64,000 bases of DNA from NCBI RefSeq assembly GCF_035594125.1, contig NC_087152.1:16357501-16421500 (forward strand). Reading direction: 5' to 3'. This stretch comes from Scylla paramamosain (lineage: Eukaryota; Arthropoda; Malacostraca; Decapoda; Portunidae). A program made the position numbers and the translations under genes. Below are positions 18,656-20,420 of the stretch, piece by piece. Each line of letters starts with the position of its first letter. Position 1 is the stretch's first letter. The notes beneath the pieces are model-generated. The model ran no database searches and was not told the DNA's origin. It saw only the letters and a list, made by a program, of their open reading frames with translations.

Positions 18656-20420
18656 CAATGGGGCCGTTTTCCTGCACCTCGCCGAACATGGTGGTATTGG
18701 GGAACACAGGTGGGTTGTCGTTGATGTCCTTCACTAACAGGGTCACCACAGTCTCTACTAGGTGCACGCGGCCGCCACGAGTCCGCTTACGCGTCACCCA
18801 ATCAGCTCGTGACGCGTGGTAATCCTGCCTGTTCCCGCCAAACACGCTCATGTCACCGCAACCTCCGCCGTTTCCTCCTGCAGTGTGCTCTTCTTCTCCA
18901 GAGTAAGGGGAGTCGAAGGAGGTGTTGTAGAGCATGGTGTCCCTCGTCTTTCTGGGCTCCCTTGTCTCTCTTCGCTTCCTGAGACTTCGTTCAACGCCAG
19001 ATGTTTTTGAGTCGTGTTGTTCAGTTATTGGTTCTTGAGTAAGAAACAAATTAACTTTAGAGGGTATGCCTTCCCGTGTTGAACTCAGATTTTCACTGGA
19101 CGTCTTGCTTTGTCTACTTTTCTCCGTTCCCTGTTTTTCAGCGTCATTTTTTCCAAGGTTCAGAGTTGTGGAGAATGTTTCCCATTCAGTCTCAGAGGAT
19201 TTGATCGGGAGGTGTTGTGGATTAGTCTCGGCTGTGCCTCTGGCCGCGTCCACATCTGAGCGTGGCTTTCTCCTGACTCCCTGCTGGAGCCATTCACCTC
19301 CCTCAACGGAAGTTGTCTTTTCTTCTGTCGAAATATTAAAGATATTTTTTCGCTCAGAATTTATGGTTGCCTGAACTTTCGTGGCAGACTTCTTGAATGT
19401 CTGCGACGCTTGATTCGATTGCAATCTGAAATTCCTTCCTGTAAAATTAGAAGAGATATTGAGATTTTGTTCCAGTTTGGTATGTAGTGTTGTATTGCCG
19501 TGGCAGAGCTTTGCCGCGGATGCCACAGGCCGCTGGGCGGCGAGGTGTGGCTGGCCAGATGCACGCACCATCCCTAATGTATTGTTCTTGTTCACCCAAG
19601 GCTCACGACTGTGCATGAATCCTCTGAGGCTCTGGAAACTTTCTGTTGCATTTTTAATCTCTGCGGTTCTCTTAGTTCTTAGCTGCTGCTCGTTTGTCCA
19701 CGGAATGTCTGAAGTTTGTGGATATACTAACTCCATCTTCCTTTTAGATAATCGCTTCGTCTCTGTCGCTTCCTGGGTGTTGTAAACTGAAGACTTCTGA
19801 AAATTATGCCGCCTTCCTGGCAGACTGCCTTCAGCTCTCTGTGAATGGTCCGGCTCACGCCACTCTCTTTCTGCATGAGAGGGAGTCGTCGCCTCAGGAT
19901 GAGGATTTTGTGGAGTTTTCTCCCCAATTTGCTTCCGCGGCCCACTGAGGGAACTACTGGTTTGGCTGCTCGTTATTTGCTGAAGTCCTTGGATCCTTTC
20001 GTTTATGGCTGTTCCGGTGCAATTTAGATGCCTAGTCAAAAACTGACTTGCTGTCCACTGAGCCTCCAGTTCCCTTGCATCACTGTCCTTCACTATCTTT
20101 CCAATCAGTAACTTGTCTTCACCTGGCATCAATTCATAACGAGGGCTCTTAAAAGTTTCTGATGGCATTTCTTTCAGCACCTCGTCGTTCGTATTTCTCT
20201 TCCCATCTGCCTCCAGCACTCTTCTCTCCTCTCCCTCGTTAGTGTCTAAGGTCTCCCGCGTCTGGCTTCTCCTCCGGGCTTGTCTCGGGTGACGGCTGTG
20301 GCTGCTGTGAGGGTCTGCTTGGACATCGCCACCAGGGACTGATTGGAATGCCTGGCCGTCCCGCACTTGTACCCGCACCTTCCATACGTGCCTTCCTCGC
20401 GGGGGATCTCGATCTAGCGC
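18656..20420 (-). CDS. CadN-like: Neural cadherin-like gene, internal exon 5 of 5 seen, with giant insert in an EC repeat
   Basis: This exon is 1765 nt (588 codons plus one base), with acceptor GTGTTGCAG and donor GTGAGTAC (phase 1). Codons 1-23 (ALDRDPPRGRHVWKVRVQV then RDGQ) are the LDRD calcium motif and the F strand of an EC repeat. Codons 551-588 (RVHLVETVVTLLVKDINDNP then PVFPN, later MFGEVQENGPI) are the last strand, the DINDNPP linker and the first strand of the next repeat. Between them, at 18771-20351, lie about 527 open codons of polar, charged sequence rich in Ser, Thr, Arg, Lys, Glu, Asn and Gln. This insert holds nine N-x-S/T sequons, a furin-like RKRR and an RTKR, and almost no Cys. 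Such a loop is normally under about 15 residues. A 527-codon open stretch in frame on both sides argues that it is coding, though a retained or alternatively removed internal intron cannot be excluded. No exon further downstream was recognised. Confidence 0.88.
18771..20351 (-). other. Low-complexity, sequon-rich insert inside the second cadherin repeat
   Basis: This is the part of the long cadherin exon that matches no cadherin strand. It begins after RVQVRDGQ and ends before RVHLVETV. Visible features are nine N-glycosylation sequons (for example NCT, NAT, NNT, NTT, NIS, NFT, NLS, NTS), several dibasic stretches (RRR, RKRR, RTKR, RKTR), few hydrophobic runs and a Gly-rich patch GGNGGGCGD near its end. 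I see no transmembrane segment and no known domain. It is probably a disordered, glycosylated extracellular loop. Its function is unknown. Confidence 0.75.

Follow-up and report, generated by a model that had tools for sequence, protein, structure and literature searches.

Introduction

The fly neural cadherin, DN-cadherin, is a type III classical cadherin whose precursor is cut at the junction of the second and third extracellular cadherin (EC) repeats, the first two repeats forming a prodomain that is lost (PMC8325961). In this work we describe a gene on the minus strand of a 64,000-nucleotide stretch of DNA from the crab Scylla paramamosain (contig NC_087152.1, positions 16,357,501 to 16,421,500; hereafter the window), which encodes a neural-cadherin-like receptor with an insert of 527 codons between strands F and G of a single EC repeat. 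The F-G loop of a cadherin repeat normally consists of a few residues and lies beside the calcium-binding junction with the preceding repeat, and to our knowledge fly N-cadherin has a short loop at the orthologous repeat. The three consecutive repeats concerned are referred to as EC_a, EC_b and EC_c, with the insert lying in EC_b.

The gene model that represents the crab receptor, P0002 ('putative neural-cadherin 2 isoform X2 [Scylla paramamosain]', 2367 residues), resembles DN-cadherin in having EGF domains, laminin-G domains and a cadherin cytoplasmic motif after its EC repeats (for the fly make-up see also PMC8325961). It differs from the fly protein in that the model has seven EC repeats, that its family carries an insert of 208–912 residues inside one repeat, and that the predicted cut would fall inside a repeat, not between repeats. 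DN-cadherin is both a precedent for convertase-type maturation and the source of the main rival to the interpretation preferred below, namely prodomain loss. Two further groups of receptors offer partial comparisons. With the vertebrate clustered protocadherins and the chelicerate sDscam genes (see PMC4835542), the decapod family shares an arrangement of receptors in tandem or on the same chromosome, of which one part is variable and the others are alike; the likeness is in outline only, the variable part of the crab proteins being a disordered insert instead of the face of an adhesive domain, and laminin-G and EGF domains being present. With two-chain receptors such as the insulin receptor and Notch cut at S1, it shares a basic site in an extracellular loop, the chains of those receptors being held together by disulphide or fold complementation, whereas the putative crab cut would separate strand F from strand G within a cadherin repeat. 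PMC5473995 includes a type III cadherin of the decapod Caridina. Among the literature matches listed there was no description of such an insert or of a decapod expansion of these genes.

Coding Status of the Insert

The insert is a genuine coding part of an adhesion receptor of the N-cadherin-2 type in decapods and krill. The 1765-nt exon that contains it (E5, positions 20420–18656 on the minus strand) is open over its whole length, running from strand F through the insert to strand G of the repeat, and P0002 is identical to it over 588 residues. There is no in-frame stop in the insert, against a mean of 19.9 and a minimum of 7 in dinucleotide shuffles (n = 2000); a chance open frame is rejected because the shuffles never fell below seven. 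Stops number 20 and 34 in the two other sense frames and 16–22 in the three antisense frames. An earlier reading of the DNA, made from the sequence alone, had proposed that one exon joins the two EC strands through 527 open codons, and the frame, the shuffles and the identity with P0002 confirm it.

Within the window the host gene comprises five exons, all bounded by AG before and GT after, which join into 770 codons with no stops. The first of them (E1) matches P0002 at 100% within residues 17–61, and mismatches between the five exons and this model occur only at exon joins or where the alignment enters an intron. Third-position GC is 0.49 for the insert, 0.70 for the flanks of the exon and 0.80 for the other exons, and the three codon positions differ less in base composition within the insert than within the flanks; the codon-position signal of the insert (chi2 24.0, 6 degrees of freedom) is equalled or exceeded by 9% of 3794 control windows. 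The case for coding therefore rests on the absent stops, the gene model and the relatives.

Distribution among Decapods and Krill

A protein search with the insert exon returned 68 proteins, 66 of which are models from decapods or krill, the majority bearing the name neural-cadherin or neural-cadherin-like; together with two Portunus models from a search with the region after the insert, 70 proteins were examined. They were scored by anchors on strands F and G, which was feasible for 57; the remaining 13 (11 family models plus P0068 and P0069) have no usable F flank, and every protein that has one was kept. In all scorable decapod and krill members of the gene family the insert occupies the same position (57/57), with lengths of 208–912 residues and one of 1293, the last coming from a 'LOW QUALITY' model (P0004) in which the choice of an earlier G-strand match would shorten it to about 850. 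By source name the 57 models represent 13 species, including the krill Meganyctiphanes norvegica. The proposal of a lineage-specific change fails on this count, which also rules out a crab-specific insertion.

The search with the region after the insert uses no insert sequence and hence does not select for the insert. Its best 120 of 3038 matches are dominated by FAT-type proteins and contain 44 family members; the insert is present in all 37 of these that have both flanks. A further comparator search yielded seven family members and three distant proteins, with no canonical N-cadherin among them. In the tree, the window protein has a Cherax model as its nearest relative (84% across the columns retained), and P0005, P0031 and P0060 stand on long branches and are read as garbled models. 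The gene is one of many neural-cadherin 2 paralogues and not necessarily the canonical N-cadherin.

Disorder and Structural Context

By a charge-hydropathy index all 57 inserts score as disordered. AlphaFold2 folds the cadherin repeat of a crab paralogue (P0034) with confidence and leaves its insert unfolded; applied to E5 alone it gives a mean predicted local distance difference test score (pLDDT) of 43, with the insert below 50 nearly throughout, and because half a repeat cannot fold, only the low confidence of the insert is taken from this second model. The loop is large and predicted to be disordered, as the sequence-only reading had supposed, and the solved cadherin pairs that were aligned, DN-cadherin EC1-4 among them, contain no comparable loop. 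PDB sequence searches list a fly DN-cadherin chain, and the solved fly structure matches in fold, EC1-4 being not necessarily the orthologous repeats. A known domain inside the insert was considered and rejected, as Pfam reports no family in the open frame of E5 at E <= 0.01.

Conserved Cysteine and Basic Sites

The insert of the window copy holds three Cys, nine N-X-S/T sequons and an RKRR site, the last two as previously noted, and in addition an RTKR site. Two features of the family had escaped the sequence-only reading, namely the near-identical EC repeats that same-species paralogues combine with unlike inserts, described in the next section, and an invariant Cys near strand G. The counts given here for Cys and basic sites exclude two of the 57 models (P0037 and P0049), which repeat Portunus genes already represented (n = 55). 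In 55/55 the last Cys of the insert lies 15–52 residues before strand G, where random placement gives a mean of 10.1 and a maximum of 19; Gly stands one or two places before it in 37/55 and Asp or Glu one or two places after it in 43/55. The only other widely conserved Cys of EC_a and EC_b belongs to a Tyr-Cys pair near the start of EC_a, present in 41 of the 44 sufficiently long models, the three exceptions having N-termini judged to be garbled. No additional Cys occurs between Tyr-Cys and strand F in 40 of those 41 models, and in seven models with Tyr-Cys the insert holds a single Cys.

An R-X-X-R motif is found within 50 residues before the invariant Cys in 48/55 inserts, where windows of insert interiors predict 17.7, and in 23/28 when one protein is taken per insert family (P 6.6e-8). 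A weaker enrichment is seen in the first 50 residues of the insert (33/55; 16/28 families, P 0.005), and either R-X-X-R or a dibasic site lies within 60 residues of the invariant Cys in 55/55. The possibility of proteolytic processing raised earlier is plausible from the sequence, with basic sites at a conserved place across the family. Heavy glycosylation as a selected trait, by comparison, is not supported: the family has 232 sequons where 282 are expected, and the nine of the window insert itself barely exceed the 5.7 expected on shuffling the same insert.

Divergence of Inserts among Paralogues

Two Scylla-Portunus pairs preserve the insert in frame, at 84% over 754 residues and 69% over 208. 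Stops or frameshifts in close relatives, which the sequence-only reading had named as refuting evidence, could be sought in protein models, which hide stops; on these, the two crab pairs just given are in frame, whereas two others have diverged to 24–30%. Similarity between insert interiors at E <= 1e-3 is found in 64 of 1596 pairs, the other 1532 having no detectable similarity. No portunid orthologue of the window's own copy turned up.

The family is clustered, several paralogues sharing one chromosome: five models of Panulirus ornatus lie on a contig of 21,159,578 bases and five on one of 28,623,056, and three Scylla models lie on a contig of 41,757,776 bases, placement on the same contig being assumed from equal contig base counts. 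In P0006/P0007 (Panulirus) and P0022/P0025 (Procambarus) the EC repeats flanking the insert are nearly identical and the ends of the insert near-identical, while the interiors are weakly alike (32% over 120 and 34% over 428, respectively) with sharp borders. Alternative splicing of the interiors is not favoured as the cause of these borders because both pairs also differ elsewhere along the protein. The pair P0012/P0016 (Procambarus) has no interior match, and as its members come from different source sets they may not be separate loci of one genome. Like EC repeats with unlike insert interiors are also seen in P0035 (Panulirus), in the same pattern as P0006/P0007. Gene conversion of the EC repeats, suggested by three pairs, may have acted in a limited number of cases: of 134 ordered cases only 10, some three of which are clear, have EC repeats nearer a same-species paralogue together with an insert nearer another species (52 of the 57 models were used, leaving out P0005, P0031, P0060, P0037 and P0049), and homogenisation of the EC repeats is thus not general.

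Proposed Mechanism and Rival Explanations

The interpretation that we favour, with middling confidence, is that the insert is a convertase-processed, disordered F-G loop that gives rise to a two-chain, disulphide-stapled receptor. A furin-type proprotein convertase would cleave the loop at the basic site that shortly precedes the invariant Cys, with a possible further cut close to the beginning of the loop, leaving a distal chain made of EC_a and strands A-F of EC_b and a membrane-proximal chain made of strand G and the rest of the receptor. The chains would be held together by strand G, completing the EC_b sheet, and by the invariant loop Cys, whose likeliest partner is the Tyr-Cys of EC_a. 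The interior of the loop would be free to vary, each receptor carrying or shedding a tail of its own, and this variable tail may have a role. Judging from the conserved place of the motif, it is plausible that cells cleave the receptor at the basic site.

Several observations weigh against this proposal. The strict motif R-X-[RK]-R is present within 50 residues of the Cys in only 21/55 inserts (5.4 expected), plain [KR]R is common everywhere (47/55 against 29.4 expected within 50 residues), some paralogues have a dibasic site only, and the RKRR of the window copy is followed by more basic residues, which makes the exact cut position ambiguous. Both the motif and the window size were picked after the inserts had been viewed, and insert families share ancestry, so that the basic-site figures are to be taken as guides. 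The predicted disulphide is drawn from conservation, and around the Cys the structural model is of low confidence. Two crab pairs are only 24% and 30% identical in the insert, the interior of the window's insert has no detectable similarity to the other 56, and the gene models have no obvious signal peptide, so that further EC repeats may precede EC_a.

The most serious rival is removal of a prodomain, in which a cut at the end of the loop would take away EC_a, strands A-F of EC_b and the insert and expose EC_c as the adhesive tip, with no staple. This has a precedent in DN-cadherin, cut between its second and third EC repeats (PMC8325961), EC_a and EC_b being the first two repeats of P0002, and it accounts both for the clustering of basic sites upstream of the invariant Cys and for the free variation of the insert. 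It would, however, strand strand G of EC_b on the mature chain, leave both conserved Cys without a partner, the invariant one at the newly formed N-terminus and the other in EC_a, and it sits poorly with the strong conservation of EC_a and of the EC_b flanks in the pairs compared. We consider prodomain removal doubtful and prefer the stapled receptor in view of the strong conservation of EC_a and EC_b in those pairs and of the retention of two otherwise lone Cys. The loop might instead remain uncut and act as a spacer or brush, a flexible charged polymer of which only bulk and disorder matter, holding membranes at a set distance or preventing lateral packing at that level of the rod, while its sequence drifts; universal disorder (57/57), the spread of lengths (208–912, one 1293) and the dissimilar interiors of 1532/1596 pairs would all follow, yet the invariant Cys and the adjoining R-X-X-R cluster are left unexplained, and we regard this account as unlikely.

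Neutral drift of an old, tolerated insertion of little function atop the repeat, kept open only since frameshifts would kill the receptor, would be compatible with the very fast divergence of the crab pairs at 24% and 30%, with sequons that are not enriched and with the weak codon-position signal of the window copy. It is nevertheless improbable, given that the insert is never missing in 57/57 models, that two Scylla-Portunus pairs keep 84% and 69%, and that the Cys and basic site are conserved at its end. Least probable by far is a retained intron or exitron, removed from most mature mRNA: the insert does lie within one exon, has a length that is a multiple of three and offers a 7-of-9 donor match, AAGGTGCGG, at 20378, but no strong acceptor is found near strand G (the pyrimidine fraction is at best 0.56 close by and 0.81 about 125 nt further upstream), and the models of decapod and krill relatives have long in-frame inserts, which two crab pairs preserve.

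Domain Make-Up and Other Features of the Window

The cadherin domain PF00028 is recognized in the insert-free exons at E 3e-22 and in P0002 at 2.4e-61. Six DxND linkers in P0002 mark seven EC repeats; the EC array is followed, outside the window, by EGF and two laminin-G domains (PF02210, PF00054 and PF00008, two stretches each), and residues 2252–2280 match the cadherin cytoplasmic motif PF01049 (27.8 bits against a cut-off of 24), which predicts catenin binding. Type III cadherins in the strict sense have about 14–17 EC repeats, and the seven counted here are a possible undercount, as the models may be truncated and have no obvious signal peptide.

Among the 68 models from the search with the insert exon, 20 share a 16-residue N-terminus, MDPxxIFQIITNSTLLA, and 10 have NVVIPLLIPLEENL or near variants of it. 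Both variants join the same EC_a start in different paralogues and look like alternative internal or first exons; neither resembles a signal peptide on inspection, and neither N-terminal exon variant is found in the window at up to six substitutions. The Scylla paralogue P0034 (1133 residues) stops 50 residues past the start of strand G of EC_b, with no more repeats and no membrane span; its model may be truncated, or the protein may be a short form that is secreted.

The positions of the exons and of the elements of E5 are collected in Table 1. The 297-nt intron between E4 and E5 consists, over at least half of its length, of a TA run, and dense, long dinucleotide microsatellites occur in many other places of the window (for instance 20530–20692 and 10470–11120). 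Two retroelement-derived reverse-transcriptase fragments are present, at 1670–2971 on the plus strand (PF00078, E 2.1e-30) and at 58453–58896 on the minus strand (E 2e-13), the second sitting in the intron between E1 and E2.

Table 1. Exons of the cadherin gene and elements of its insert-bearing exon, in window coordinates
Feature	Position	Strand	Basis
Exon E1: start of EC_a with conserved Tyr-Cys (Cys codon 61248-61250)	61181..61309	-	splice context, open frame, P0002 match
Exon E2: EC_a	47298..47413	-	splice context, open frame, P0002 match
Exon E3: end of EC_a, DVNDN linker, start of EC_b	27108..27272	-	splice context, open frame, P0002 match
Exon E4: middle strands of EC_b	20718..20855	-	splice context, open frame, P0002 match
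Exon E5, 1765 nt: strands F and G of EC_b with the insert between them, start of EC_c	18656..20420	-	identical to P0002 over 588 residues
Strand F and VRDGQ turn of EC_b (VRVQVRDGQ), directly before the insert	20352..20378	-	homologous stretch is a predicted strand in P0034, residues 312-320
Insert, 527 codons, in the F-G loop of EC_b	18771..20351	-	open frame, charge-hydropathy disorder, low pLDDT
RTKR, second convertase-type site, interior of the insert	19668..19679	-	motif
RKRR, convertase-type site lying 36 residues before the invariant Cys	18969..18980	-	motif; basic site at this place family-wide
Invariant Cys codon in GGGCGDMSVF motif, 30 residues before strand G	18858..18860	-	family conservation
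Strand G of EC_b and DINDN linker, RVHLVETVVTLLVKDINDN	18714..18770	-	homologous strand in P0034, block pLDDT 76-87

Significance

Decapods have elaborate nervous systems, and clustered protocadherins are not known from them or from other arthropods. It is conceivable, as a tentative extension to which we attach low confidence, that the clustered decapod and krill receptors combine a convertase-split EC repeat, halves held by a disulphide and a hypervariable disordered tail or shed peptide that serves as receptor identity, and that they are in this way an arthropod counterpart of the clustered protocadherins, built on disorder instead of an adhesive face. If the processing is real, a cadherin would here be assembled and matured in a new manner, by a cut within a repeat and not at the junction of two, and the presence of unlike inserts on near-identical receptors raises the question of whether decapods may use these genes for neuronal identity.
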